From Craspedostauros australis (taxonomy: Eukaryota > Bacillariophyta > Bacillariophyceae > Mastogloiales > Achnanthaceae), in NCBI GenBank assembly GCA_026770025.1, contig JAMXDE010000004.1, forward strand, positions 930,001 through 994,000: a stretch of 64,000 nt of DNA, read 5' to 3'. Positions within the stretch are counted from its first letter, which is position 1; every line of letters begins with the position of its first letter. The translations under genes were made by a program, and so were the position numbers. Positions 1,576 through 58,813 of the stretch are shown piece by piece. The notes under the pieces were generated by a model. It searched no databases. It was not told where the DNA came from and saw nothing but the letters and a program-made list of their open reading frames with translations.

Positions 1576-4500
1576 TCAACAGAGAATTGGGTGATGGGTA
1601 CGGGTAGGCCATGAGTCTGTGATGTAGGCTAGCAGTGTTGACGGAATTGGTAAAGAGGAGGCAGTTGGGATCTTGCTTGCATTCAAAACATCATCATGAA
1701 TAGTACTTGCCTGGATCCCTGTGGTGGGAAAATTGAGCTCTGGAAAGGAGAGCATTGCTTCCAGAGTGTTGATGATGTTGTTGACGATATCCTTCAGGAT
1801 GGCCTTCAGCATATCCTCCTTGGTGGCTTTGTCAATGTTGTTGCCACCACTGACATCGCATCCCTTGCTCTTGAGCTGTTGCAGGATAGCCTTGGCCACG
1901 TTGAAGGTGTTGAAGGAGGTGGCAGTATCAACGTTGATCTTGCAGGATGGGAAGGAGAAGGTGGCAATGGCGATCTTCTTCTGCTGATTCTCTTTGCACT
2001 CGGGAGTAGCTCACTTCATTCTGCTCTCAGCATGTGGAACGCTGCATCTGGTGGCTCTTCCATGTTCTGAAAGGATACTCCCGCAAAGTGGGCGAAATCG
2101 ATGAGGTTCATGGTGGTATCAACGCCTGGCTTGCGCATGATTGTAGCAACAGTTGGGTTGATGCCAGCATATGGACAGAAGCTGGTATTGATTGAGGCAA
2201 AGTAGTTCTTATGAGTAGGCCTGTGTACTGTGTGCTGCGTGAAGAGTGCGGTGAGTTGCGTGCTGCATGACTGTGGCGACAAGGAACTGGAGGTTGTCTG
2301 GAAGCCCTGCGATTGTGTATTGCATTGCATTTGGTTCCATCAGGATGATGTGGAGTGGATGAATAGTATGGATGAAGAGAAAAGGAGAAGGAGAGAATGG
2401 GTGTGATTGTGTTGGTGTGCAAGTGTTTGAAGTGCAGCACACAAACACATGATGGGCAATTGCTGCAGTGATGGTGATGGGTTGCTGCGACTGCGGTTGT
2501 GCGTCAACACTTACCTCCAAGCCAGCGCATGTACTGGAAGCACATGACCTCCACGATTGGATGGATGAGAAGACAAGAACTTCATCCAGGTTGGCGCAAA
2601 TCAACCTGATGATGCAGACAAGGATGCCTGGGTCCTTGGCAACATTCTTCATGAACTGCTTGTCAGCATGGCCATTGCAGAGCTCCTCGAGGAGTTACCC
2701 TGCGCACTCCACACATCCCATGATCATGTTCTCAGAGAATCCTTTCATGTGTGCGACAGTGGCAGTGGTGTGGAAGGCATGGTACGGACTCTCGAGGACA
2801 ACACAGGCACAGATGATCTTTGTGATTTAGCCACAGTGGATATCCTTTGGTATGACATGATGGCTTCGACACATTGATGGTACCATGCATTCCATCATTT
2901 CTCGCTGGACATGCAGGAGGATTTGGTCGGTTGTTGATGGCATTGATGGCATTGACGGCTGTGGGGGACTGGCCGATGAGCACAGTAGTTGACCATTGCT
3001 GCAAAAGATCTTCAGATGCGAAGAGCGGTATCGTATGTTTGGTTGGCATCTATTGGTGCAGCAGTTTGTCCATTCTGTGTGTTCTGCCATTCGTGGATTC
3101 GGCTGTTTGTCTGTTGGTTGATTTGCGCTGCTGAATTGTGGATTTTGTTTGTTGTGCGGAGTGATCACTTGTCTGCCCATTCATTTGCGTTCGTTTGTGT
3201 TGGTTTGTTCGTGCATTTGGGAGCGGTGACAGTTTGGAATGGATTTTGTGGATGGAATTGTAGATCGTACGATGCTCATGCTGTTTGACATTTGAGCCAC
3301 GCAGAATCTGTAGTGTGTGCGGGTGCGCATCCGCATCAGACAGCATTCCGTGGGATGCCAGAGGAGCAACATCAATTAGAGCACAATGATCAATGAGTGG
3401 CATTGATGTAGGTGATGACAAATCAAACTGGAACAAGTGATTGTTGCCAAATACTCTGCTGATTCGTTGGTTGCAGCCAACAGAACTCAGTTGGGTGTTC
3501 TCTGTTATGTACCCTGCAGGCTCTGCAGCTGTGACCTGTGGGCTCTGCTCTCTGCCAAATGATGCAGAGTGATCTGTTGATCATTTTGAGATACTTTGCT
3601 TCATGTACTATGCTCTTTGTTGGGTACTCTGGTGTTGGGGATTTGTAGTTTCTTGATTGTTGCCAATTACTTTGCAGTATATTTGATGCTTGATCCTTTT
3701 CTGCTGCTGGTTGCTTCCTGTTGGATCTTCTCTGTGAATTTGGTTGTGGTTGGATGCTCCTCGTTCTGAATGTTCTTCATTGCTTCACTACTGGTTGCCA
3801 AATGTCATGTGGTGGTGCTCACTACTAACCCACTAGTACCTGGTTGAAGCCAGATACTCTTCTTGATAATGAGCTGTGTATGAATTCATTGGCTGTGGTT
3901 GGAAGCCCTGTTGCTTCTTCTGGAAACTGCCTACTACTTGTTGATCAATAACAATATTCCTGGATCTTGCTAAATGCAGTCTTCTCATCAGTTGGTTGTT
4001 TCAGGAAGCAGTCTGCACTCTGCATTCTGTGTGGTGCCGGTGATTAGTATGTGTGTTGGTGTCTGCCGGATGTTGCCTTTCATGCTTTCGACGGGATGTG
4101 GTGCTCTCTGTCTGTTGCGACATACATTGATGAGATCTGTACTGTATGCTGTGCTCTCTGCCCATCAGTTGCTTCCAGCCAGATGCTCTGCTATTGACCA
4201 TCAGCCAAATATACAACTTCTGAAGACTACTGTGATGTTCATTCCACAGGCTCAATGCTCAGCCATCCACAAGGCTCTGAATGCACCAACTCACTGAGCA
4301 TTGTCCTTGCCGCTGTGATGTCAGTGTTGTTGAGGCTGTTGTTGTCCTGATTCACAGCGTTTGCAGCTTGTTGTGCATTGCCAACTGCTTTTCACTGCCC
4401 TTTGCCCATTGACATCATGTAGGATGAGAATTTGGCCCGCAGTGGGAGTGCAAGGAGATGAAGCTCCAGATCCACCATTGCCCTTCAACCATACTTGTAT
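1576..4500 (-). pseudogene. Decayed protein-coding region, family unknown
   Basis: Read on the minus strand, this stretch gives protein-like blocks separated by stops and frameshifts. Near 4490-4380 there is a Gly/Ser/Pro segment (KGNGGSGASSPCTP). Near 4360-4220 a Gln/Asn-rich block (NAQQAANAVNQDNNSLN) leads into a helical stretch ending WLSIEPVE. Near 3950-3830 there is another Gln-rich block. Near 2660-2530 the block reads QFMKNVAKDPGILVCIIRL. Near 2220-2050 it reads NPTVATIMRKPGVDTTMN. Near 2010-1700 it reads KKIAIATFSFPSC followed by a Lys/Asp-rich helix. The last two blocks lie in different frames with a stop between them. The order and strand agree along 3 kb, which suggests one dead gene or mobile-element protein. 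I do not recognise the family; Gln-rich spacers and the transposon-rich context make a retroelement or transposon protein plausible. Confidence 0.4.
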
Positions 4501-15801: not shown

Positions 15802-17162
15802 TGTTAGAAAACTCCGCGCACGGAGATGGACTGAAGTCTTGCTGTTCTGTTGTTTGTTAGTTGTTATTGGTTGTAGGACGACAGGTGTTATGAGACAAAC
15901 AGATTAGCACCTCTTCTTTGCATTGTTGTCATCACGTCTGTCAGGAATCGAGGGTGCGACTATGTCGTGTTATCCTAGATTGCCGCACCTCCCATAATAC
16001 CAAAAATAGACTGACCAATCTACCAAAGTCGGACACACTCCCAAGTCGATTGTGGACCTCCTCCTCTGTGTGTCAAGAGTATGACAGACGAAGGACAGAC
16101 TAATGATGTGACATGGCTTGAGGGGATTGACGAACTGGCATGGTGAATGATGGATGCGAAAGGGAGACTGGAACACCGAAGTGTTCCAAGCATGAGTGTT
16201 AACCGGTTGACCTGAAACATCTATGCGAAAGCGCTATCACGGTTGAGTCGCTCGGAACCCAGAACATGATTACGTGACTGACAGAGAACCAGCGAAGGAG
16301 AACAAAGCGCGGACTGGAACAACATCGAAGGACTGGACTGATCGTGCCAGAACTCCATGTTCTGACCAAGTGTGATTGTCAGTGAACATGTGAGAAGAGT
16401 GAGTGAACAACACGGAAGAGTGTACTGAATGAATGATGGATGCCTGATGAGAAGAGAATGAATCAAGCATCGGCATGCATGTATCTCAGGAGAGTAGACG
16501 GACACCTCAACAGACAAGCATGGTGAAGATGCACCTGTCATGAGCAATAAGATGTGCATGATGGAGAGAGTCTGTAATGATGATTGTGAGGGGCAACTAC
16601 AGGAGGCCCACCAGCATCATCATGGGCAAACGAGTCGAGGACTTGAGAAATGAATATGTTGTTCTCACAGTTCTAAAACGGTACAGTTTGATAAACATTA
16701 AACTACAGTATCTATACCCCGGATTTCCAACACACGTCATATTGCGGATGGCACACATCTTTCCTGAATTTGGTGCGGTTCACAACCATCTCGAATTGCT
16801 CTTTCACTCGACAATTCCTCCATGATGTTGCGTGTTGTTTCGGTCTGTTCATCGCACATTTCCGTGTTGTTTCTTCATCAATTTCTTCTGAGATTCGCAT
16901 CAACATTAAAAGTTTCATTCTTCTGTAGACTTCAGTACTAAGTCATTGTTCTTCTCTTGACACGAAGATTCCACGTCAGGATTGGAATCTTCTTCATACC
17001 ACGTCACATGGTCGTCTTGGTCACCTTTTGTTGTTTTCCTCCTTGAGTCACGAGTTATGAGTCACGAGTTCACAGTCTCACATTTTCTCGTTTGGTCGTC
17101 ACCGACACACACATCAGTGTCACGGTGATTGGAGCGAAGCATTGAACACACACATTTCGACA
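15802..17162 (-). repeat. 3' LTR of element A
   Basis: 1361 bp, TGTTAGAA ... TTTCGACA on the plus strand, equal in length to the copy at 39634-40994. The two differ at one C/T site in a CpG (near 16231 versus 40063) and at one G/A site (near 16980 versus 40812). Positions 15939-16732 are a foreign solo LTR in opposite orientation. Without it the LTR would be about 561 bp, close to the 566-567 bp LTR of element B. Confidence 0.95.
15939..16732 (+). mobile_element. Solo LTR of the C family nested inside the A LTR
   Basis: This 794-bp segment (TGTCAGGAATCG ... TTTCCAACA) is a diverged reverse complement (very roughly 85-90% by eye) of the 791-bp LTR of element C. It is flanked by the perfect 6-bp duplication CACGTC (15933-15938 and 16733-16738). 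The same insertion with the same flanks lies in the other A LTR at 39771-40564. Confidence 0.93.
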
Positions 17163-39633: not shown

Positions 39634-40994
39634 TGTTAGAAAACTCCGCGCACGGAGATGGACTGAAGTCTTGCTGTTCTGTTGTTTGTTAGTTGTTATT
39701 GGTTGTAGGACGACAGGTGTTATGAGACAAACAGATTAGCACCTCTTCTTTGCATTGTTGTCATCACGTCTGTCAGGAATCGAGGGTGCGACTATGTCGT
39801 GTTATCCTAGATTGCCGCACCTCCCATAATACCAAAAATAGACTGACCAATCTACCAAAGTCGGACACACTCCCAAGTCGATTGTGGACCTCCTCCTCTG
39901 TGTGTCAAGAGTATGACAGACGAAGGACAGACTAATGATGTGACATGGCTTGAGGGGATTGACGAACTGGCATGGTGAATGATGGATGCGAAAGGGAGAC
40001 TGGAACACCGAAGTGTTCCAAGCATGAGTGTTAACCGGTTGACCTGAAACATCTATGCGAAAGTGCTATCACGGTTGAGTCGCTCGGAACCCAGAACATG
40101 ATTACGTGACTGACAGAGAACCAGCGAAGGAGAACAAAGCGCGGACTGGAACAACATCGAAGGACTGGACTGATCGTGCCAGAACTCCATGTTCTGACCA
40201 AGTGTGATTGTCAGTGAACATGTGAGAAGAGTGAGTGAACAACACGGAAGAGTGTACTGAATGAATGATGGATGCCTGATGAGAAGAGAATGAATCAAGC
40301 ATCGGCATGCATGTATCTCAGGAGAGTAGACGGACACCTCAACAGACAAGCATGGTGAAGATGCACCTGTCATGAGCAATAAGATGTGCATGATGGAGAG
40401 AGTCTGTAATGATGATTGTGAGGGGCAACTACAGGAGGCCCACCAGCATCATCATGGGCAAACGAGTCGAGGACTTGAGAAATGAATATGTTGTTCTCAC
40501 AGTTCTAAAACGGTACAGTTTGATAAACATTAAACTACAGTATCTATACCCCGGATTTCCAACACACGTCATATTGCGGATGGCACACATCTTTCCTGAA
40601 TTTGGTGCGGTTCACAACCATCTCGAATTGCTCTTTCACTCGACAATTCCTCCATGATGTTGCGTGTTGTTTCGGTCTGTTCATCGCACATTTCCGTGTT
40701 GTTTCTTCATCAATTTCTTCTGAGATTCGCATCAACATTAAAAGTTTCATTCTTCTGTAGACTTCAGTACTAAGTCATTGTTCTTCTCTTGACACGAAGA
40801 TTCCACGTCAGAATTGGAATCTTCTTCATACCACGTCACATGGTCGTCTTGGTCACCTTTTGTTGTTTTCCTCCTTGAGTCACGAGTTATGAGTCACGAG
40901 TTCACAGTCTCACATTTTCTCGTTTGGTCGTCACCGACACACACATCAGTGTCACGGTGATTGGAGCGAAGCATTGAACACACACATTTCGACA
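39634..40994 (-). repeat. 5' LTR of element A
   Basis: 1361 bp, partner of 15802-17162 with two differences. It contains the same nested solo LTR at 39771-40564. Followed by AATCAA (40995-41000). Confidence 0.95.
39771..40564 (+). mobile_element. Solo LTR of the C family inside the second A LTR
   Basis: 794 bp, at the same offset (137 bp) and with the same CACGTC duplication as the copy at 15939-16732. Confidence 0.93.
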
Positions 40995-45958: not shown

Positions 45959-45990
45959 GGTGCATCCACCTCAGACGAACTGCCTTGGAC

Positions 45991-46067
45991 AGTGGTGTTG
46001 CACAGTGGTGTTGCACAGTGGTGTTGCACAGTGGTGTTGCGCAGTGGTGTTCAACGGTGGTGTTGAC
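45991..46067. repeat. 13-bp tandem repeat upstream of the ankyrin gene
   Basis: About six units of AGTGGTGTTGCAC. The last two are degenerate. It lies 30-110 bp upstream of the ankyrin start codon, so it is in its 5' untranslated region or promoter. The unit length equals that of the large minisatellite but the sequence is unrelated. Confidence 0.85.
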
Positions 46068-46965
46068 TTGGTGACAATGTTCGCGCGCAAATTCAATAAA
46101 CCCACCAACCAAGCAATCAAGCGACAAGATGGGAAGCGTCGAATCAGCGATCCTCCACCAACACAAGTTGTGCTGTTGTGTGGCGTCGCTGTCAGCTTCT
46201 GGTTGGATCTGATCTTTGGGAGGGCTCGTTTAGTATGGTGCTCCGACCTCTTGTTGCCTCCGCTTCTGCCTCTCCTCTGTGGCGATGAGGATGGATGTGA
46301 GCTTGTATGACACTGTGAACTCGCAGCGTGCGAAGGCCAAAGCTGGTATGGCAACGGCTATGACCTTTGTGGCTTGTTTGTGCACAAACTTCGAGGGCAC
46401 AGATGAAGAATGAACGAAGTGCTGAGGAACGAAACAGAGGTGCACACTCCACAGGCGCCAATCTGTCACGCTATTCAGGTTTCTGTCAGCGGCACACCCT
46501 CATCGTTTTCGCTCTTGTTGCTCTTGTCGCCATTTTCTTCGAGTTTTTGGCAAAACGTTGAAAATTCGATTCGTTGGATTCAACCCCTACAGACATGACT
46601 TGGATCGACTTTACTGACGTGGCCAATGAAGCAATAAACGGTCCATTTCAATCTACGGCCACATCTCATCAACAGTCACAATTGATCAACTGGCTACCAA
46701 CTTACACGGTCACATCTGGCACAACACAAACCACAAACACAAGAAAGGACAGACTGACAAACGGACACACAATTCATCGCCCAACAGCGACTCCCTACTG
46801 TTACACATGCATACCCCAGTGCGCGAAAAGCAAGTGCGCGCATGCACGCACACGTGACAATCACCGTTTGGCTGACAACACATCCTTCTCACAACAACCA
46901 ATGCGATGATCCGTTGTGATCGGCATCACTCCGCTCTCTCAAAACGTGACACCGAGCAGGACCGA

Positions 46966-46990
46966 TCCCACAAACGAGCGTGCACGTTCA
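46966..46990 (+). promoter_or_regulatory. Conserved upstream block 1, silicon transporter copy 1
   Basis: TCCCACAAA followed by ACGAGCGTGCACGTTCA resembles 54049-54074 upstream of copy 2 (TCCCACAAAACA then CGCGTGCACGTCCA), at similar distances from the start codons (about 690 and 630 bp). The core GCGTGCACGT is near-palindromic. Confidence 0.4.
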
Positions 46991-47070
46991 TTCGACCACA
47001 TCGACCCAGTAGTGAGATCTTGCATCCTACAGCTATTTAGGCCAGACACGATGTCGCACGACACACCGGG

Positions 47071-47119
47071 CAATCTTGGAAAGCATGACACGCTGTCGCC
47101 AAAGTCAACCGTACTCACA
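47071..47119 (+). promoter_or_regulatory. Conserved upstream block 2, silicon transporter copy 1
   Basis: Contains ATCTTGGAAAG, then CACGCTGTCGCCAAAGTC, then a CTCACA end. It matches 54191-54238 upstream of copy 2 in the same order although the sequence around both is diverged. It lies about 580 bp before the start codon. Confidence 0.5.
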
Positions 47120-47428
47120 ATTCCGTCACAAAGGTGAAGACGATCATCAAAACACAGAACAGTGGCAGCAACAATGACAGTCCGCAACCCACCAAAATCA
47201 ACGACACGGAGCCAATCCATCGCTGATGCTTCATCTTTCATCTTTCATGTTTGTTTTCTGTCAGACATGGGTGAAGGTGAGTTGCGCCGAAGGTAAAGGT
47301 GAGTATCTTCTCTGCTGTAGTACGAGAAATAGGAACATTGGAGAAGTGTGGAGTGGGGTATCCACACCATCTCCACTCCACCGCAACGAGAACATCCACA
47401 ACTCCAACACCAGCATCAGCCGTGTCAA

Positions 47429-49373
47429 CAGTGTCAACGGTATCGACGGTGTCAATAACGGACTACCACAACGCAAACGCCACACAAACAACACACAAAC
47501 ACCAACAAAGATCGTCAACTCGGATCGACTTCCACTCTTCACTCCTCATTCATCTCACAATCTCACAATCTTGCAATCTCTGCAACGCTCAATCACAGCA
47601 ACAACCAGAGTATCAACACAACAACAACAACAACAACAACAACAAACAAACAAGATGGATCCCGTTCAGCTCGTCAAGTCGGTGTACTCCACCGGACTCC
47701 TCATCTTCTCGATCACCATCGTCTGCGGACTCATCTTCAATGAGCAGACCAAGGTCTCGTCCGAGGTCCACCCAGCCGTTGCCCTGATCGTCATGATCAC
47801 GGCCCTCGTGTGGCTCAACATGGTTGAAGGAGGACAGGGTTCCCTCGTCGGTCTCCCACCAGTCGACCGCGACCTCTACGTCGAATCCCACCCAACCGCC
47901 CACCAGTGCACCTCCCTCGCCCACAAGGGTGACAACCTCGACCGCTACCTCATGGGACGCCAGTTCATGGTCCTCCTCATGGTCTTCACCATCAACCAGT
48001 GCGGTGCCCCACTCGCCGATGCCGAAGTCTTCGGCCTCCCAGACATCATCATCCAGATCTTCCTCGGATCCGGAGCCGCCATGATCCTCATGACCGCTCA
48101 AGCCGGACAGCTCAACTCCCAAGTCAACGCCTCCCTCTGCATGCTTGACTACATCAACAACTTCTTCGCCGTCTTCACCCTCTACGTCGCACTCGCCATC
48201 GAGTTCTCCGGACTCCTGCACTCGTGCTACCTCGTCCAGATGTTCTTCGTCTGGGCCTCAGGCAAGGAAATCGAATCCAAGGAACCGCCACGCGACGGTG
48301 CCCAGAACCTCTTCTACTGGGGCCGCATCCTCATCTCTCTCGCCATCCTGTGCTACGCCATGGCCGTCACCCTCGTCGCCCTGTTCGATGGAAAGACCAC
48401 CATGTGGGCCGGAGTGCCAAACGGAGTCGCCGTCATCCTCTTCTTCCTCTTCATGTCCATCGTCGGTATGCTCGAGGGTATGCAGATCGCCTTCTTCGCC
48501 GTCGCCAAGCTTCCAAAGGAGGACCGTGGAGACCACCCAATGGCCCGCAAGACCTGCGAGCTCCTCTTCCGCGGTGACGGACGCAACCTTCCAGGATTCA
48601 TGATCGGACGTCAGATCTGCGTGACCATGTGCTTCTTCATCATCGCCCGTGTCACCACCCTCGATGTCGAGGTCGGAACCGGCGAGAACATCTTCGGAGT
48701 CTCTGACAGCACCCAGGAATTCTTCAACACCGGACTTCTCGGAGCCCTCATCACCACCATCATCGCCTCCATCACATGGCAGCTGGTTGCATCCGTCTTC
48801 CCAATCGCCTTCCTCTCCAACCCAATCGTCTACATCTTCCTCCAGTTCTGTCTGTTGTTGGAAGCCACCGGTATCTGCTCCGGAGCCTGGGTCCTTGCCT
48901 CCATCCACAAGGCCGTCTCTGGCTTCCAGCTCGATGAGGTGTACATCGGTACCCCAGAGGAGCGCGCAGCCGGCATGAAGCCAGACCACCAGAGCAACCG
49001 CAACATGCATTTGGGAACCAACGTGCTTGTCGGTGAGGCCGGTTCCACCGCCGTCCCACGCGAGTACCTCGAGCTCCAGAAGGCCTTGGCCACACAGAAC
49101 GAGTCTTACTCCGTCCGTCGCGAACGCATCCTGTCTAACATCAAGGGACTTCGCGAGGAGATCAACGCCTGCAGCAACGAGGAGGATGCCTCCGTCTTCG
49201 AGTCTGCCCTTCGCATGGAGACCGCTGCCATGGACAAGCTGAACCAGGCTGAGAACGACAGCGTTGGCGAGAGCGATGAAGAGATGGGTGTGCAGAAGTA
49301 AGCGCTTTGCGCTGAACGCCATCATCGACATCATCATCATCTGCAGTGCATCAGGCAGGTCGTCTACCACGAC
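47429..49373 (+). repeat. Duplicated unit, copy 1 (5' leader, transporter gene, 3' end)
   Basis: The sequence from CAGTGTCAACGGTATCGACG to just past the stop codon is repeated at 54451-56400. Outside these limits similarity stops, apart from the two upstream blocks. Confidence 0.9.
47655..49301 (+). CDS. SIT: Silicon transporter, copy 1
   Basis: A 548-residue polytopic membrane protein of the diatom SIT family, which takes up silicic acid (usually with sodium) for building the silica cell wall. The family signature is present twice, as paired motifs: EGGQ (residues 58-61) with GRQ (101-103), and EGMQ (274-277) with GRQ (318-320), reflecting its internal duplication. About ten hydrophobic segments can be seen up to residue 440. 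A soluble tail with a predicted coiled coil follows (about 478-535, for example YLELQKALATQNE and ILSNIKGLREEI). The start was chosen at MDPVQLVK because copy 2 can only start there. An upstream in-frame extension to 47226 exists in copy 1 but is leader sequence with a CAA run. Codons end mainly in C, suggesting strong expression. Confidence 0.93.
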   Translation: MDPVQLVKSVYSTGLLIFSITIVCGLIFNEQTKVSSEVHPAVALIVMITALVWLNMVEGGQGSLVGLPPVDRDLYVESHPTAHQCTSLAHKGDNLDRYLMGRQFMVLLMVFTINQCGAPLADAEVFGLPDIIIQIFLGSGAAMILMTAQAGQLNSQVNASLCMLDYINNFFAVFTLYVALAIEFSGLLHSCYLVQMFFVWASGKEIESKEPPRDGAQNLFYWGRILISLAILCYAMAVTLVALFDGKTTMWAGVPNGVAVILFFLFMSIVGMLEGMQIAFFAVAKLPKEDRGDHPMARKTCELLFRGDGRNLPGFMIGRQICVTMCFFIIARVTTLDVEVGTGENIFGVSDSTQEFFNTGLLGALITTIIASITWQLVASVFPIAFLSNPIVYIFLQFCLLLEATGICSGAWVLASIHKAVSGFQLDEVYIGTPEERAAGMKPDHQSNRNMHLGTNVLVGEAGSTAVPREYLELQKALATQNESYSVRRERILSNIKGLREEINACSNEEDASVFESALRMETAAMDKLNQAENDSVGESDEEMGVQK

Positions 49374-50322
49374 AGCCAAACAGCCACACGGCAGATCGAT
49401 CGCCCCTCTTCCCCTATCTCCCACGATGGAGACACTTTTGGGGGACCAGATTTTATGTAACAGCAACGTGACAACGAATTGTACGCAAAGTAAAGCTAAA
49501 TTAGCAAATGAATACTCCGCAACAACACAGGACGAGAAGCCGTCTCACCATTAGCATGGACCAACATACTCCAACGTGTAATAGTTGCGGCACCAGCAAA
49601 CGGATCGCTCGGAGAATGTCTGCAATAGTGTGTCCGAGATGTATGCATCCGAAACCTTGTGTTGCTTTTCACAATTCGCCATGTGGGATTCGCCAACCCT
49701 GCCGTCCCAGTTGTACTAGAATGTAACAACCCATCTCTGCTGCATGCGCGTCCATGCCATGAGCATCTTCCAGTCTTTGTCACTTCCAGTTTCTGCAACT
49801 TCCAACTTTTTCCCAAATCGACAGACGATGCTGCCCGGTTCAGATCAGCTATGATATCTGCCACCAGGGCTCTTCCCTTCATCATCAATCTGCAACTTCC
49901 AAGAATAGGACGATGGCATCAATAGACAGCAACACACCAAAATGTATTCTCTCACTTAGTTACTTCTGCAAGCGGAGTTGCCTGGAAGGCTAGCAGTCTA
50001 AGTACACGGCAAGAACGGCTGCGATTCACGCCGGTAACTGGATACCTACTATATGACGCTAAAGCCACATGTTGGCATTCATCTGGTGATACGAAGATAC
50101 TCTCTCCGATGCCATACGACTAGAGCAGAGCGGTACTGAAGCTCGTATCATACCATGCAGAATACCATACCATTGAAGCGCGGTCTCCATACTCCTCCAG
50201 AGAGAAGAGCATTCTTGCTGATGGCCACAAGTACGAGCAGATACGAGTTCGGATCTGGAATGATGCATCCTATGAGTACTATTAATAATGTATAACAAAA
50301 TACATATTGGTCCAAGAGCATT
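49374..50322. other. Intergenic region downstream of silicon transporter 1
   Basis: Convergent 3' flanks of the transporter and the HSF gene. A 72-codon Cys-containing frame (49508-49726) is present but unsupported. No RNA gene was recognised. Confidence 0.45.
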
Positions 50323-51633
50323 CTACAACTCCACGATGCAGGAAGGTACCGAGCTAAGCTGGTGCATCGGCACAGCCTGAGTGTCGCTGTACGAGCAAGT
50401 GCTTACTGGCACCGGCAAGGCATCATCCAGCAAGAATGGTCCTTTCTGGATATCCATGTCATCGTCACCATCGCCATTGGAATTACCGTTGGTATCACTA
50501 TCCCAGGCGGGCTCCTTCACAGTATCAAGAACTTCATCCCACCCTTCCAGTGACACCAAGCTTGGTCGACGCTCTTCTTTTCCGGCCTCGATATCCTGTT
50601 CGGTACCAGCCAACGGGAAGATATTGGGCAACGCCAAACTCTCATGGCGGCTCAACAATGTGTCGATGCTGCTGCCCGTGGTGGTGCATGGGATTGGGAA
50701 GTAACCCTGGCCTTCAAAGTCGTCTCTTTGCGTGGTGGTGCTGTTGTAACAAGACGGTCTCACAGGGCCACATGCCACCGCGGACTGTTTGCGCGCGATG
50801 TGGGTTGCATCTAGCGTTGACAGGCCATCAACATCCAGCGGCGCTTTCATTGACGTGCAGTCTTGCATGGAACAAGCTTGGCTGGCATCGTCGTTCTCTG
50901 GATCGGATGCGATCTGCTGGCTTGGAGGAGGAAGAACGGATGCGCTGGAAGATGAGGCATCGCTCACCCGCTTGCTGAAGATCTGAACGATTGAGTTGAT
51001 GGGGACAACAGAAGATGGAAGAGCGTCGACGGCTTGAACGCTCCCGTTGCCGACCTTCGCGTTGGAGAGCACCGCTGATGCGATCATGTCGCTGTACGTC
51101 TTCTCGCTGAGCGTCGTCAAGGGACACGCTGACTGTCTAATAGGTGCGAACTTGGGCATCTTCTTGAGTTTCTGGACATTCTTCGACACCGCCGATGCAG
51201 CCTTCGCCGAGGATGGCGATGTATCAGCGGATGCGACGGCGGCATTGTGGCGAGAGTTGAGGTTGCCGACACGTTTTGCGGACTCGAAGTCGTTGCGGCA
51301 GAATTGCTCATGGTGGTATGCGCTGTTCTTGCCCCTGCCACGCGTCATCCTCACGAAACCGTAGTTCCTCAGCTGTCTGGTGAAGGACCGCATGTGCGTC
51401 TGGCGGAAGTACCTTGGCATGACGAGCTCCACAAACCGCTTTCGATCATGGACGCGGAAGGCGTTCTCGTTGTCAGGCATCCATGAAATGATGTCCTCGA
51501 AACCTTGTTCTTCGACGTCGGTGAGGAGCTGGTGGAGCTTGATTGGGAATGGGAGATATGGAATCTTGTGCTGGTTGCTGCGCTGGATGGTCTTGATCTT
51601 GTTCAGATCGAGGTTATGGAGGAAGGCGCTCAT
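50323..51633 (-). CDS. HSF: Heat-shock-factor-type transcription factor
   Basis: A 436-residue protein with an HSF DNA-binding domain at about residues 25-115: IPYLPFPIKLHQLLTDVEE, ISWMPDNENAFRVHDRKRF, the recognition helix region MRSFTRQLRNYGFVRM and the AYHHEQFCR end. HSF-type proteins are the most expanded transcription factor family in diatoms and bind inverted GAA repeats in stress and other responses. The remainder is Ser/Pro-rich with no clear coiled-coil oligomerisation region. The start at 51633 (MSAFLHNLDLN) is preferred; the frame is open upstream to 51849, but that part encodes a Gln/Ser/Pro/Thr-rich string from a short tandem repeat and is probably leader. It sits between the two silicon transporter copies on the opposite strand. 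Confidence 0.88.
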   Translation of the reverse strand: MSAFLHNLDLNKIKTIQRSNQHKIPYLPFPIKLHQLLTDVEEQGFEDIISWMPDNENAFRVHDRKRFVELVMPRYFRQTHMRSFTRQLRNYGFVRMTRGRGKNSAYHHEQFCRNDFESAKRVGNLNSRHNAAVASADTSPSSAKAASAVSKNVQKLKKMPKFAPIRQSACPLTTLSEKTYSDMIASAVLSNAKVGNGSVQAVDALPSSVVPINSIVQIFSKRVSDASSSSASVLPPPSQQIASDPENDDASQACSMQDCTSMKAPLDVDGLSTLDATHIARKQSAVACGPVRPSCYNSTTTQRDDFEGQGYFPIPCTTTGSSIDTLLSRHESLALPNIFPLAGTEQDIEAGKEERRPSLVSLEGWDEVLDTVKEPAWDSDTNGNSNGDGDDDMDIQKGPFLLDDALPVPVSTCSYSDTQAVPMHQLSSVPSCIVEL

Positions 51634-52489
51634 GTTGCGTGTGGTTCTGTCTTGTCTGTCTTGCTGTGGATTGCTTTGTTGTGGATTGCTTTGTTGTGGA
51701 GTGCTTTGGGTTGGTTTGATGAGCTGTGTTTGTGTTGAGAGCTGATCGATACGATTTTTATGAGACCGATCAATTGGCTGCCTGATTGGTCTGTCTGTCT
51801 GGTGGGCTGCTGATCGTACGCAGAGTGCTCGTAGAGTTTGTACGAGCATTGGTATGTATGGAGAGTGTATTATGACGGTACAATGGAATAGAGTACATCG
51901 GTGACTGCGATGACTGCGGTGAATGCTGAGACGAGAAACCGAGGCTACGCTGCGCGAGCGCTGCGGAGAGCAACGATTTGATTTCGCGGTTGCTGTCTGC
52001 TTGCCGTGTGTGATTGATGAGCGTTGGTCGCCACCATCACAGCGGTTTCTGCGTTTCTCGGACCAACGAATCGAGGTCGCTGCTTGGAAGTGCGCCTACT
52101 CCACACTCCACGGCAGTACGAGTAGGAGCCACACCTGCAGCGGTACCAGCAGCGTTGGGACCACATGACATGGATTCTGTGATGAACATGCACCAGGAGC
52201 GTCAGCAACACCCACATTGCAGTTCTACCCAAGAAGAAGCCGCGCCTGCTGGCAGTTCGTCACTTGCGTTCCTCTTGATACGTAAATCGACATCGTTCAC
52301 ACTACTCTAAATACTCATGGGTTGCGTGTGGCTCTTAGCTCGTTGATGATTGAACGATGGGTCACAGCACCCGTTTGGCATTTAAAGGCCCAGAACGCCC
52401 CTATTCGACGACTCTCTCATACGAAGCACGAACATCTTCCCCCGAAGCCAACGCGTCGACGTGGGTCACTGCGACATGAACAGACTTCA
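51634..52489. other. Upstream region of the HSF gene
   Basis: Contains about three 15-bp repeats (TTGTGGATTGCTTTG) near 51665-51712, close to the HSF start. Nothing else was recognised. Confidence 0.45.
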
Positions 52490-53377
52490 TCAATCATTCG
52501 CGAACGTCCGTGCACAAGAAATGGAACGCACATCTGTGCTGAGGTAAATCTTGGTCGATTGAGTCGTTTGCAAACATCTGTGCCCAAATCGAGCAAAGTT
52601 GGGCATTCTTTGGTGCGAAACAACGTGTCGTGATGGACGGACAGACGGAATCATCGGCGATGTCACACCATCTTGTCGAATTCGCAACAGAGCGCGTGTC
52701 CACACGACGCACCATTCATGACTATGCGAAAGCGTGAGGATGGCACAAACAGGGAGGAGAAAGTTGGAGGATTGGAGCAAACATCTGAGCAACAGCGAAT
52801 TACGGCCATCTGGGACATGGGTCCCACGGATGCGAATGGGTAACCTCGCCCAGGTATCTGTTGTGGCGGCTCCAAGTAATGGAAGACAAACAGCAAACAC
52901 AGAAAGAGAAAGATCCGTGGCGCACGGATGCTCAGCTGACAACCCGAGTTGGATCGCGCAATCACTGATCGAATGGAAATGGAGGGATCGCTTGGTTCGA
53001 GTAGGCACCGTGCAAATTACATGCATGATATGTATGATATGTGTCAGTGGGAGTAGATCATTCCACAAACAAGCAGATATTATACTTGCATGAAAGTGAT
53101 CCGAGTGCGCCCTGCCTGCTTGTAAATGGAACTTTATGAACATCACAGCAAAGTGGTGTGCTTTTCCAATCGGTTGCCCATCTATGTGCGACACGAGCGC
53201 AGCTCTTCCCTTGCTTGTCATGATGTGCTCGCACTCGCACTTGTACTCTAACATCTTGGATGTACCAACAGTCTGGCAACTTCCGTTGTGATGTGAGACC
53301 ACCATGGAGTACGCTCGCCACAACTCCATGTCTCTGGCGTATTGGACAGCGAGCGCTTCATGACGCCATGCATCCAT
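52490..53377 (-). CDS. Hypothetical 295-codon frame
   Basis: An uninterrupted frame of 295 codons, notably long for intergenic DNA of this composition. The translation begins MDAWRHEALAVQYARDMELW and is rich in His, Ser, Cys and Leu. I see no domain, signal peptide or repeat, and codon choice is unlike the C-ending bias of the transporters. It may be a chance frame, a lineage-specific gene or a remnant. Confidence 0.2.
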   Translation of the reverse strand: MDAWRHEALAVQYARDMELWRAYSMVVSHHNGSCQTVGTSKMLEYKCECEHIMTSKGRAALVSHIDGQPIGKAHHFAVMFIKFHLQAGRAHSDHFHASIISACLWNDLLPLTHIIHIMHVICTVPTRTKRSLHFHSISDCAIQLGLSAEHPCATDLSLSVFAVCLPLLGAATTDTWARLPIRIRGTHVPDGRNSLLLRCLLQSSNFLLPVCAILTLSHSHEWCVVWTRALLRIRQDGVTSPMIPSVRPSRHVVSHQRMPNFARFGHRCLQTTQSTKIYLSTDVRSISCARTFAND

Positions 53378-54048
53378 TGCGAGTGTTGCGGAGGCATCTT
53401 GGTTGATCTTCTGTTCTTGTGAAAGATGCTCTTTGGGTTTGAATCATGTTTGGATGTCTGTCTGTTAGTTTCTGTCTTGTTTGGTTGTTCGCAGAATACG
53501 GCCAGTCGTCTGTTCATACAATTGAGTTGTCAAACAGTCAAAGCACGAGTTTAATCGTTCTTCTCACAACCCACGCCACACCATACCACGCAATACTGTG
53601 CCATGCCCGTTCTGAATCGGTTCAGACAACAGGTCCTTCTGAATCTATCTATGCGTTGATGGAGAGGTTACACACAAACAGGTGCCGCGCTTGTCTCTGT
53701 CAAAGCTCCGCAGTGGCCAGGCATGAGAAAGAAAAAGAGAATGATGCCGTGTGTAAATCCATGCACACCCTTCCTCGCTCCCTCACTATCCATTTGCCTG
53801 TTATGCAGGACAAATACCATTGCGGATTCTAACCCCACCGAGTGCTCATGATCCATCTGCCATCATCCCTATACTGGAGCAGCGTACTCTGCTCTCTCAG
53901 CCGATTTGTGTCTATTTTCTGCCTCAACATCTTCGTTAAAACAGTTGATATACATTTACCGCAGATCCATCTAGTTGCAGTTTGGATCTTTGGCAATGAC
54001 AATGAAACTGCGGCTTCTTCCACAACGGGCGATAAGCGTGCACCCTTG

Positions 54049-54074
54049 TCCCACAAAACACGCGTGCACGTCCA
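54049..54074 (+). promoter_or_regulatory. Conserved upstream block 1, silicon transporter copy 2
   Basis: Counterpart of 46966-46990, with the shared core CGTGCACGT. It lies about 630 bp before the start codon. Confidence 0.4.
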
Positions 54075-54190
54075 CAAAGCTGAACGACCTTTCGCGAATA
54101 ATGCAGATGCGCCACGTGGGCCCTACCATGTTTCTACGAAAAGGGACTAGCGAACAATCGTGAAAGAGTGGTTGTTCCGACGCGCCGGCT

Positions 54191-54238
54191 ATTCTTGGAA
54201 AGACGGGCACGCTGTCGCCAAAGTCGATTCCCTTCACA
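54191..54238 (+). promoter_or_regulatory. Conserved upstream block 2, silicon transporter copy 2
   Basis: Counterpart of 47071-47119, with the shared strings TCTTGGAAAG and CACGCTGTCGCCAAAGTC and a TTCACA end. It lies about 490 bp before the start codon. Confidence 0.5.
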
Positions 54239-54450
54239 TTTTGCCACGAAACGCTGTTGTCCGCAACAGCAACTCAACACCCGACATCAGCACCAACACA
54301 TCAAATGACAACCAACACAACACAGAACAATGACAACAACGCTCGACTTCAACAAGATCCATGAAAGGAATTGCGTGGTGACAACTCCAACAACAACACT
54401 CGTGCGAGAGTGGACAAGTGATCGGCAAAACGAAACGAGGATTGGAGGAC

Positions 54451-56400
54451 CAGTGTCAACGGTATCGACGGTGTCAATAACGGACTACCACAACGCAAAC
54501 GCCACACAAACAACACCCAAACACCAACAAAGATCGTCAACTCAAATCGACTTCCACTCTTCACTCCTCATTCATCTCACAATCTCACAATCTTGCAATC
54601 TCTGCAACGCTCAATCACAGCAACAACCAGAGTATCAACACAACAACAAACAAACAAGCAAACAAACAAACAAGCAAAATGGATCCCGTTCAGCTCGTCA
54701 AGTCGGTGTACTCCACCGGACTCCTCATCTTCTCGATCACCATCGTCTGCGGACTCATCTTCAATGAGCAGACCAAGGTCTCGTCCGAGGTCCACCCAGC
54801 CGTTGCCCTGATCGTCATGATCACGGCCCTTGTCTGGCTCAACATGGTTGAGGGAGGACAGGGTTCCCTCGTCGGTCTCCCACCAGTCGACCGTGACCTC
54901 TACGTCGAATCCCACCCAACCGCCCACCAGTGCACCTCCCTCGCCCACAAGGGTGACAACCTCGACCGCTACCTCATGGGACGTCAGTTCATGGTCCTCC
55001 TCATGGTCTTCACCATCAACCAGTGCGGTGCCCCGCTCGCCGATGCCGAAGTCTTCGGACTCCCAGACATCATCATCCAGATCTTCCTCGGATCCGGAGC
55101 CGCCATGATCCTCATGACTGCCCAAGCCGGACAGCTCAACTCCCAAGTCAACGCCTCCCTCTGCATGCTTGACTACATCAACAACTTCTTCGCCGTCTTC
55201 ACCCTCTACGTCGCCCTCGCCATCGAGTTCTCCGGACTTCTGCACTCGTGCTACCTCGTCCAGATGTTCTTCGTCTGGGCCTCAGGCAAGGAAATCGAGT
55301 CCAAGGAACCACCACGCGACGGTGCCCAGAACCTCTTCTACTGGGGCCGCATCCTCATCTCTCTCGCCATCCTGTGCTATGCCATGGCCGTCACCCTCGT
55401 CGCCCTCTTCGATGGAAAGACCACCATGTGGGCCGGAGTGCCAAACGGAGTCGCCGTCATCCTCTTCTTCCTCTTCATGTCCATCGTCGGTATGCTCGAG
55501 GGTATGCAGATCGCCTTCTTCGCCGTCGCCAAGCTTCCAAAGGAGGACCGTGGAGACCACCCAATGGCCCGCAAGACCTGCGAACTCCTCTTCCGCGGTG
55601 ACGGACGCAACCTTCCAGGATTCATGATCGGACGTCAGATCTGCGTGACCATGTGCTTCTTCATCATCGCCCGTGTCACCACCCTCGATGTCGAGGTCGG
55701 AACCGGCGAGAACATCTTCGGAGTCTCCGACAGCACCCAGGAATTCTTCAACACCGGACTTCTCGGAGCCCTGATCACCACCATCATCGCCTCCATCACA
55801 TGGCAGCTGGTTGCATCCGTCTTCCCAATCGCCTTCCTCTCCAACCCAATCGTCTACATCTTCCTCCAGTTCTGTCTGTTGTTGGAAGCCACCGGTATCT
55901 GCTCCGGAGCCTGGGTTCTCGCTTCCATCCACAAGGCCGTCTCTGGCTTCCAGCTCGATGAGGTGTACATCGGTACCCCAGAGGAGCGCGCAGCCGGCAT
56001 GAAGCCAGACCACCAGAGCAACCGCAACATGCATTTGGGAACCAACGTGCTTGTCGGTGAGGCCGGTTCCACCGCCGTCCCACGCGAGTACCTCGAGCTC
56101 CAGAAGGCCTTGGCCACACAGAACGAGTCTTACTCCGTCCGTCGCGAACGCATCCTGTCTAACATCAAGGGACTTCGCGAGGAGATCAACGCCTGCAGCA
56201 ACGAGGAGGATGCCTCCGTCTTCGAGTCTGCCCTTCGCATGGAGACCGCTGCCATGGACAAGCTGAACCAGGCTGAGAACGACAGCGTTGGCGAGAGCGA
56301 TGAAGAGATGGGTGTGCAGAAGTAAGCGCTTTGCGCTGAACGCCATCATCGACATCATCATCATCTGCAGTGCATCAGGCAGGTCATCTACCATGACGAC
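54451..56400 (+). repeat. Duplicated unit, copy 2 (5' leader, transporter gene, 3' end)
   Basis: Partner of 47429-49373. The leader differs mainly in a CAA/CAAA microsatellite just before the start codon. Confidence 0.9.
54679..56325 (+). CDS. SIT: Silicon transporter, copy 2
   Basis: It encodes the same 548 residues as copy 1, with no amino-acid difference seen. About 20 third-position changes separate the coding regions, all synonymous and all upstream of the codons for VLAS (residues 417-420). From there to about 45 bp past the stop the two copies are identical. Family motifs are as in copy 1 (EGGQ/GRQ and EGMQ/GRQ pairs, about ten membrane segments, C-terminal coiled coil). Stops upstream fix the start at MDPVQLVK. 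It has the same strand as copy 1, 7 kb apart, with the HSF gene between them on the other strand. The identical protein suggests dosage rather than new function, unless the two promoters respond differently. Confidence 0.93.
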   Translation: MDPVQLVKSVYSTGLLIFSITIVCGLIFNEQTKVSSEVHPAVALIVMITALVWLNMVEGGQGSLVGLPPVDRDLYVESHPTAHQCTSLAHKGDNLDRYLMGRQFMVLLMVFTINQCGAPLADAEVFGLPDIIIQIFLGSGAAMILMTAQAGQLNSQVNASLCMLDYINNFFAVFTLYVALAIEFSGLLHSCYLVQMFFVWASGKEIESKEPPRDGAQNLFYWGRILISLAILCYAMAVTLVALFDGKTTMWAGVPNGVAVILFFLFMSIVGMLEGMQIAFFAVAKLPKEDRGDHPMARKTCELLFRGDGRNLPGFMIGRQICVTMCFFIIARVTTLDVEVGTGENIFGVSDSTQEFFNTGLLGALITTIIASITWQLVASVFPIAFLSNPIVYIFLQFCLLLEATGICSGAWVLASIHKAVSGFQLDEVYIGTPEERAAGMKPDHQSNRNMHLGTNVLVGEAGSTAVPREYLELQKALATQNESYSVRRERILSNIKGLREEINACSNEEDASVFESALRMETAAMDKLNQAENDSVGESDEEMGVQK

Positions 56401-57151
56401 CGGCTGAATGCCGCAGCCATTTTGAAACTTCAACGATTGGGAGAACGCAGCATGAACCAATGCACGGACGCAACCAATTCTATTATATGTATTCAACAGC
56501 AATGTGAAAACAACAACGAACACTGCAAATCAGCGGTGTACATGAACATGTGACAAGATAAGGGTAATACCACTTTACATGTAAACAGTGAATTAAAACC
56601 AACACGCCATTCTGCTGAAATCTGAAATCGCGGATGATAGCAATCGCTGCGCTCTGTCTCCATGCGCTATGTCAACATCACTTGCCGTACGTGCGATACC
56701 TACGCAATCTGTCGTCGACATCGTGCCACAAAAGTCAATGTCACCAAACATGGTCCGGTAACTGAAACCACGATGGAGCATGTCTCATTGTTATTGGTGT
56801 GGATGATAGTGCCACTCTTACGATGCAACTGTCTTTCAATCAAATGCCAGCAACCTTAAAAATGAAAATCAATGTCATCTCGCTCGCTTCATCATCTTTG
56901 TGGACGCCTCGCTTGCATCTCACGCTGTACTATAACAGTAGTGTGGTATTGCATAGCATGGAAACAGTGAAGCGCAAGTCGGTGGCAAGATCTCATTCTC
57001 CGCTGTTCCGAATGGTGGAAGTCTTCATTCATCTTCACCATTCACGCATTGTGTTCCATTCATTGGCAAGACGACAATCACCATCGGATCTCCGATTGTC
57101 CCACGCGTGCAGATCGAACCCGTACGCGAGCTACATCCATCTGACACGCTC
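56401..57151. other. Intergenic region between transporter 2 and the DUF6824 gene
   Basis: Convergent 3' flanks. No supported gene or repeat was seen. Confidence 0.45.
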
Positions 57152-58813
57152 TCACATACGCGCGCTATTTCTGGAGAGGTTGCGCAAACTCATGGCGATC
57201 TTTTGACGGGCGGCGGTGTCGGTGACTTGCGTCCAGAACAGACCGGTGCCATCATCGCGCTTCAGGAACCGCACACCTTGGTCCTTGAGTTCCTGCACGA
57301 GGGCTGTGGAGAAGGAAGTCTTGCCGGAACGGCTCGATATGGCATCGTACTCCGCCTTGCGCGATTCCAGGAACTCCATGAACCGGATGTTGCCCGTGTG
57401 CGACTGGAATGGCCGACCACGTCCCAGTACGACGTCCTTTGCCGATGGAAAGTGGATGCAATCTTTCGACGGGAGGGCCTCCTCGTACTCTTTGCAGAAT
57501 ACCGCTTCCACGTCCTGCGTGCGCCGCAGATAGGCCATCATCTTATCCTGATCAGGGTTGCGATCCAGATCCAGCTGCAGCAGCCTGGTGGGGATGCCGT
57601 ACGATCGCAATTCGTACAGACACTCGATGTGGGAACCGAAATGAATCTTACTCCGAAGCCTCATCTCCTTGGGCAAGCCCAAGAGCATGACATTGGCCAG
57701 CGGCTTCATGCCGTTGTTCTCGCAACAGATATGCATGCTCGATAGCTGGACAGGAAGAGCGCCCGAGATCTCCATCTCCTTGGCGGATTTGGTCTGCTTC
57801 AGCTTGTGCATCATGTCCGCAATCGTGGTGCCGATCGTGTTGAGGATGACCACCAATCCTTTCTGCCCCGTCTGTGTTAGCTGTTGCGGCGAGTTGGTGT
57901 TCATGTACCACAAGGCCTGGACCAAGGAACGCCCGGACTCGAAGAAGAATCGGGTGTAGTTGAAAATGAGGATGCTTCGTCCGGATAGATCGACGCAGTT
58001 GTCATGGCGAATGATCGCGCCGTACTCCAACGACCGTCTGGCATCGCTCGGCAGATCCTCGTACCGAATGGGCTGAGCGGCCTTCTCTGCGCCGTAGATG
58101 TTCGTCTTGGCCTCGAAGTACTTGACGATGAGCTTGGCGGCTTCCCTCGGAATCCACTTCGTCTTGCGCATCACCTTGAGTCGCAGACGGCGATCCTGTA
58201 CGGCGCGCGGTGACAAGAAGGCCACCTTGCTGTAGGCATCCTTCTTGTGGATCGTCGTGATCTGATGCTCCAACTCGGCCATCCGGGCCTCCACGAGTTC
58301 CTCAGTCTCCTCCACCGCCTTGCTGACGCCGTGGATCTCGTCGTAGACCTTCTCGCGCTCATCCAACGACAGTTCATTGAGCTCATTGGCCAGCAGCTGC
58401 TCGCCGTTCATCATTTGCTCGTCATTGCGCTGACGCTTGCGCCGTTGGCCCGTGCGCCGCCCGCGGGTGCCCGTGTGCTTGTAGTACGCTGCCAGCAGAG
58501 TATCTCGACCTGCATCATCCCTGCCAGACTCTGCGTCGGAACCCTCCGTGGAGGAATACCGCCGATGCGCGGAGGCAGGACAGAAGGCAGGTGGGAAGTG
58601 GCAGATATTGAGGCATGGCGGCGGCGACGGCGATGGTGATGTCGGAACGAACTGCCCGGGCTGGTTGTCGTCGTTGGATGTCCATTGCGTCTGAGTCTTG
58701 CCGTTGTTGCTGCCGTTGTCATTCGTCGCGTTGCCATCCGTCGCGTTGCCATCATGGACCATCATGGCCAGGGATTCCAGAACATCATCATCCTCCTGCA
58801 GTGCGCGCTTCAT
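57152..58813 (-). CDS. CRAL-TRIO-like protein with C-terminal DUF6824-like domain
   Basis: A single exon of 553 residues. Residues 1-150 are polar and low-complexity with a basic cluster (RGRRTGQRRKRQR). A conserved diatom-style segment follows (LNELSLDEREKVYDEIHGVS). Residues about 230-400 look like a CRAL-TRIO (Sec14-type) lipid-binding fold: SGRSILIFNYTRFF, GLVVILNTIGTTIADMM, PVQLSSMHICCENNGMKPL and IPTRLLQLDLDRNPDQ. Residues about 450-545 match the DUF6824 pattern (DVVLGRGRPFQSHTGNIRF, then FLKRDDGTGLFWTQV), a domain abundant in diatoms, of unknown function and often in presumed regulatory proteins. Domain calls are from memory of the motifs. The combination would link lipid sensing to a possible nucleic-acid-related domain; that is inference. 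Confidence 0.72.
   Translation of the reverse strand: MKRALQEDDDVLESLAMMVHDGNATDGNATNDNGSNNGKTQTQWTSNDDNQPGQFVPTSPSPSPPPCLNICHFPPAFCPASAHRRYSSTEGSDAESGRDDAGRDTLLAAYYKHTGTRGRRTGQRRKRQRNDEQMMNGEQLLANELNELSLDEREKVYDEIHGVSKAVEETEELVEARMAELEHQITTIHKKDAYSKVAFLSPRAVQDRRLRLKVMRKTKWIPREAAKLIVKYFEAKTNIYGAEKAAQPIRYEDLPSDARRSLEYGAIIRHDNCVDLSGRSILIFNYTRFFFESGRSLVQALWYMNTNSPQQLTQTGQKGLVVILNTIGTTIADMMHKLKQTKSAKEMEISGALPVQLSSMHICCENNGMKPLANVMLLGLPKEMRLRSKIHFGSHIECLYELRSYGIPTRLLQLDLDRNPDQDKMMAYLRRTQDVEAVFCKEYEEALPSKDCIHFPSAKDVVLGRGRPFQSHTGNIRFMEFLESRKAEYDAISSRSGKTSFSTALVQELKDQGVRFLKRDDGTGLFWTQVTDTAARQKIAMSLRNLSRNSARM

Follow-up and report, generated by a model that had tools for sequence, protein, structure and literature searches.

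The stretch of DNA analysed here (the window) comprises 64,000 nucleotides of the diatom Craspedostauros australis (positions 930001-994000 of contig C2, genome G000; 74.8 Mb in 90 contigs) and carries two silicon transporter (SIT) genes in the same orientation, separated by 5.4 kb. Gene A (locus L020) extends from 47655 to 49301 and gene B (locus L019) from 54679 to 56325; coordinates are window positions on the forward strand unless stated otherwise. Each comprises 548 codons followed by a stop codon; the frame of A is intact. Gene B matches the SIT profile PF03842 with 827 bits at a cut-off of 26.8, and A likewise lies above the cut-off. Both 548-residue proteins contain four GXQ motifs (residues 59, 101, 275, and 318) and a CML(I)D motif (residue 162). 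By analogy with other SITs, its presumed function is to take up silicic acid along with sodium. The SIT family has ten transmembrane segments; a hydropathy script yielded 21 windows that overlapped one another and gave no clear number of such segments. No relative of solved structure was found at E values up to 0.1.

The translations of A and B are identical. A preliminary description of this DNA had mentioned about 20 third-position changes, and we counted 21 coding differences (coding sequence [CDS] positions 153 to 1245), all at third positions and all synonymous. If changes fell randomly over synonymous and nonsynonymous sites, such an outcome would have a probability of 5e-14. Purifying selection that removes amino acid changes from the SIT proteins is therefore clear, and the identity of the two proteins requires nothing beyond it. 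The synonymous divergence (dS) of A and B is 0.057, compared to 0.046-0.071 for the remaining pairs of copies on C2. In the alignment that the preliminary description had proposed, the homologous block around A (47429..49373, about -226 to +72 relative to the gene) and its counterpart around B (54451..56397) span 1948 columns with 98.3% identity and 34 difference events. The longest identical run covers 462 bp (48900..49361 in A, 55924..56385 in B), from CDS position 1246 to +60 past the stop, which bears out the earlier observation that the end of the coding region and the first sequence behind it are the same in both copies. With events distributed uniformly over the whole block, a run of this length has P = 0.0028 (P = 0.056 for the CDS alone). 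On its 3' side, differences follow at +61 and +69, and homology stops at about +72. The tract is no cold spot: the six nearest copies vary at 61 CDS sites, and 16 of these fall inside it. The identical 3' stretch probably represents one exchange tract.

The two genes belong to a much larger family. A PF03842 profile search of the whole genome returned 88 pieces, which correspond to 56 loci distributed over 22 contigs. We read 43 of these loci, to which the counts of open and broken genes refer. Thirty-one loci are open, including 28 close relatives with one uninterrupted frame of 535-557 amino acids, and 12 have stops, frame breaks, or are partial. All four GXQ motifs occur in 27 of the 28 copies, as does CMLD (27/28), and 26 copies have both. 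Copy D (C2:1027174, minus strand; 42 kb away from B) has a protein identical to that of A and B, while copies C, E, and F each differ from A by two to three nonsynonymous changes. Given 28 open close relatives and a third copy with an identical protein, A and B are not a mere pair. The preliminary description had proposed an old duplication kept uniform by gene conversion and purifying selection; purifying selection and family-level exchange (see below) agree with this proposal, whereas the pair as its unit has to be replaced by the family. An expansion to about 30 near-identical open copies is unusual. Among the other open loci, L051 encodes 528 amino acids, and L042 (C2:2645100) and L043 (C2:2623700) are divergent SIT-like genes (61-62% identity, 465 and 510 amino acids) in which SMLD replaces CMLD and the C-terminal tail is short; they possibly form a second SIT lineage. 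Three broken loci on C10 (625480, 640294, and 655108) share one orientation and a spacing of exactly 14,814 bases, and look like a tandem array of pseudogenes.

Several lines of evidence point to exchange among the copies. The pairwise homoplasy index (PHI) rejected clonal descent for all 28 copies (p = 0.001), for the 17 closest (p = 0.001; third positions 0.003), and for the six closest (p = 0.025). In each of ten close pairs, other copies carry both states of the silent differences more frequently than expected from random silent mutation (p from 1e-5 to 0.024). For A and B, both states are present elsewhere at 18 of the 21 silent differences, compared to 46% expected (p = 0.0002). Since both states recur elsewhere in the family, the difference between A and B looks largely like shared, reshuffled variation, so that the earlier picture of exchange as a purely homogenizing force is incomplete. 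Silent sites within 30 bp of each other are correlated (r2 of 0.199 versus 0.07-0.08 beyond 240 bp, p = 0.0005). The third letters of codons 413-415 read CTC in 14 copies, TCT in 12, and otherwise in two (n = 28), and they differ inside young pairs, A/B and L010/L015 among them. Linkage within 30 bp is still detected when these codons are omitted (p = 0.033 with 28 copies, 0.0055 with 17), and the rank correlation of linkage with distance is significant in the thinned set of 17 (p = 0.0105).

The divergence of the genes was also compared to that of their surroundings. We fetched 20 loci with 4-kb flanks, corresponding to 190 pairs; in 39 of them, 60 or more outer 5' columns could be aligned. 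For these 39 pairs, dS equals 0.069 + 0.17 times the flank divergence. It exceeds the 5'-flank divergence in all nine young pairs (flank divergence below 0.06), in five of seven middle pairs, and in none of 23 old pairs (above 0.2). Copies E and F illustrate the young end, with no difference in 759 positions just upstream but 13 silent changes. Gene divergence is uncoupled from flank divergence, as in a concertedly evolving family. Overall, ectopic exchange or conversion among the family copies is likely, and it is well, but not uniformly, supported.

On the 3' side of A and B we found no homology beyond about +72, in agreement with the diverged flanks noted in the preliminary description. On the 5' side that statement needs a qualification: beyond -228 nothing aligns except for a 74-bp element with 72% identity, located at 47059..47132 upstream of A (-596 to -523) and at 54178..54250 upstream of B (-501 to -429). 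A genome search with the element of A gave seven other matches, of which six precede SIT genes and the seventh has no gene beside it; the element of B itself is too diverged to appear among them. A block at about -600 to -430 is kept upstream of copies A-G in both 5' flank types and is most constant over CTTGGAAAG and CACGCTGTCGCCAAAGTC; it is a candidate for a shared regulatory element. Two types of 5' flank and two types of 3' flank occur in the six-copy group A-F. The type I 5' flank of A (46634..47418) is common to copies C, D, E, and F (92-96% identity), and the 3' flank of B (56410..58633) is shared with copy F on contig C61 (92% identity). Copy G bridges both 5' types: its divergence from B is 0.174 outside -230 and 0.029 inside, with a dS of 0.116. 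Given this bridge, A and B may have outer 5' flanks that derive from an old common sequence. The A and B genes and their proximal 230 bp are far more alike than these outer flanks. The flank sisters, which are C, D, and E for A, and F for the 3' side of B, argue against a simple young tandem duplication that gave rise to A and B. At L054 (C61:131000-134700), a copy with 90% identity to the type I 5' flank of A lies on the reverse strand (about 3042-3635), and no SIT gene follows it.

Neighbouring genes were duplicated along with some of the copies. Between A and B, a gene for an HSF-type DNA-binding protein (PF00447; 50323..51849, reverse strand) has a co-duplicate beside copy C, with a dS of 0.049 between the A-side and the C-side copy. 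Downstream of B, a DUF6824 gene (PF20710; 57152..58813, reverse strand; dS 0.148) and a TLC ATP/ADP transporter gene (PF03219; 59739..61787; dS 0.035) both have co-duplicates beside copy F. The flank common to both members of a SIT pair measures hundreds of bases up to kilobases in several cases, and the nearest relative by dS lies on the same contig for 16 of the 28 copies (permutation mean 2.2, p = 0.00005). Shared flanks and same-contig relatives indicate that within-chromosome duplication is an important route by which copies arise. Copy F combines the 5' flank of E, and a CDS nearest to that of E, with the 3' flank of B and its DUF6824 and TLC neighbours, as expected from recombination in or near the gene.

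We consider it likely that A and B are members of a very large, single-frame SIT family shaped by within-chromosome duplication, short-tract exchange, and strong purifying selection. According to this model, copies multiply largely by duplication within chromosomes, as their shared flanks and same-contig nearest relatives show. Silent variants would then move among copies via short-tract ectopic recombination, by gene conversion and at times by crossing over within the gene or close to it, a process for which the support is statistical rather than direct. Strong purifying selection in turn eliminates amino acid changes. The gene and the proximal 230 bp would thus evolve partly in concert and the outer flanks independently. 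The copies probably persist because a high SIT dosage is useful, as their number suggests.

A number of results weigh against this model. PHI was not significant for the four C2 copies (nine sites, p = 0.50), nor was the linkage-distance rank correlation across all 28 copies (p = 0.12), and the pairs in the comparison of dS and flank divergence are not independent. The GC content at third codon positions (GC3) reaches 0.81 in gene A, and codon bias may therefore introduce homoplasy and depress dS in old pairs. No tract stayed significant after correction when silent codons were examined with GENECONV-type tests in sets of 6, 7, 17, and 28 copies. The tract shared by A and B had pairwise p values of 0.0017-0.0175 with 6, 7, and 17 copies and of 0.43 with 28, the corresponding global values being 0.095, 0.054, 0.89, and 1.0; uncorrected p values below 0.05 were obtained for 5/15, 2/21, 15/136, and 23/378 pairs, respectively. 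When all variable sites of the six copies were used, D-E and D-F reached global p values of 0.02-0.04 (A-B 0.12). The conversion tract postulated earlier for the 3' end thus has the improbable length of the identical run in its favour and the corrected tests against it, and exchange between A and B specifically is moderately supported.

The neighbour controls are mixed. SIT silent divergence exceeds that of noncoding flank in all six pairs compared (L010-L015, L009-L012, L014-L023, A-C, E-F, and C-D), with Fisher p values from 1e-8 to 0.023 that are uncorrected and refer to flank segments chosen by the analyst. The dS of the SIT genes is also higher than that of co-duplicated frames in L010-L015 (0.074 versus 0.016), L009-L012 (0.063 versus 0.025), A-C (0.071 versus 0.049), and E-C (0.089 versus 0.052). 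For L014-L023, it is 0.104 versus 0.015 for one gene, while other, doubtful frames there reach 0.137; the neighbour frames of L013-L017, located in repeats or doubtful, were excluded. The opposite was found for E-F (0.035 versus 0.042) and C-D (0.051 versus 0.191 on a 56-codon piece), and the value for B-F (0.074) lies between those of DUF6824 and TLC.

Recent duplication followed by purifying selection only, with young copies, clonal silent changes, and a short or rearranged duplicated unit, would by itself account for the identical A and B proteins. It also fits a dS of A and B within the range of other C2 pairs, the tract tests on silent codons that fail correction, and the insignificant PHI result for the four C2 copies. 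We nevertheless regard it as rather unlikely, since PHI is significant for 6, 17, and 28 copies, dS lies above flank divergence in every young pair and below it in all 23 old ones, silent states recur across copies, the flanks of copy F are mixed, and A and B have a diverged upstream element in common. The uncoupling of dS from flank divergence could also arise without any exchange if codon bias and hotspots at silent sites led to repeated flips at the same sites, and so to shared states, high dS in young pairs, and saturation in old ones. This explanation appears improbable to us. The high GC3, the prevalence of C/T and A/G among the shared states, and a random-mutation null that leaves hotspots out speak for it; however, neighbouring sites would then not travel together as they do in codons 413-415, the linkage at up to 30 bp persists without these codons, and the mixed flanks of copy F are left unexplained.

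An assembly artefact or uncollapsed haplotype, by which A and B, or contigs C2 and C61, would not be separate loci, is very hard to reconcile with the data. The neighbourhood of B does recur on C61 at 92-97%, as a haplotig could, but the region just upstream matches C61 at only 68-73% outside the shared flank. A and B occupy a single 3.8-Mb contig at a distance of 7 kb, their flanks differ, and 34 difference events distinguish them; copies A-D are all on one contig, and same-contig nearest relatives are frequent (16 of 28). Two further flanks had no full second copy, although one of these searches scored 40 of 439 candidates, so that its negative outcome is weak. Flank searches gave no support for the haplotig idea.

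Elsewhere in the window, two direct 995-bp repeats (16168-17162 and 40000-40994) are 100% identical and enclose reading frames, which we interpret as putative copia-like retrotransposons; related copies are numerous in the genome. A short tandem array with a 13-bp unit (45972-46075) lies just upstream of an ankyrin-repeat gene.

SIT copy numbers reported for other diatoms vary widely. Thirty-seven Thalassiosirales genomes contain one to six SITs each (PMC10700740), and the diatoms in a study of Parmales three to eight (PMC10328945). The SIT1-2 genes of Thalassiosirales resemble those described here in exceeding the PF03842 cut-off, in their four GXQ motifs and CMLD, in strong purifying selection, and in forming recent species-specific duplicates for which the authors proposed a role of dosage; the family found here is larger, with 28 open close relatives that bear signs of exchange (PMC10700740). 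In Nitzschia putrida, the family is likewise expanded and partly tandem, with more than twice the SIT number of photosynthetic diatoms (PMC9054022). That species is non-photosynthetic, and positive selection and rapid divergence are reported for it, whereas here the close copies are near-constant and a RuBisCO large-subunit gene (rbcL) is present on C90, with RuBisCO chains as best PDB matches. A 2026 survey of silicification genes in 57 genomes gives two to three to more than 30 SITs per genome in diatoms and Parmales (PMC13403384); its broad criterion also counts Bacillus 'SITs', and the part of its text available to us names no species at the high end and discusses no exchange between copies. 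A precedent comes from Synedra ulna subsp. danica, in which SuSIT1 and SuSIT2 are identical neighbours about 5.2 kb apart; their authors suggested gene conversion, although conversion of the non-crossover type was not known to them from any diatom genome (PMC6114903). Each of those genes joins several SIT units, and their DNA sequences are the same, whereas the copies described here are single-unit, carry silent differences, and belong to a much larger family. This was the only report that a literature search on silicon transporters, gene conversion, and diatoms returned.

The study of Thalassiosirales raised the still open question of whether gene copy number serves diatoms to adjust their silicon uptake (PMC10700740). 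As a tentative extension of our model, which we hold to be possible but somewhat short of probable, the about 30 dispersed SIT genes might act as one effective allele pool, in which short-tract ectopic conversion would carry silent variants between chromosomes and selection for transporter dosage would keep the protein constant; SIT copy number and concerted evolution would then jointly form a tunable silicon-uptake system. Because most of the about 30 near-identical genes are silently marked, dosage and conversion are measurable copy by copy. Our data also caution that the age of duplicates can be misjudged from SIT gene trees built within one genome.

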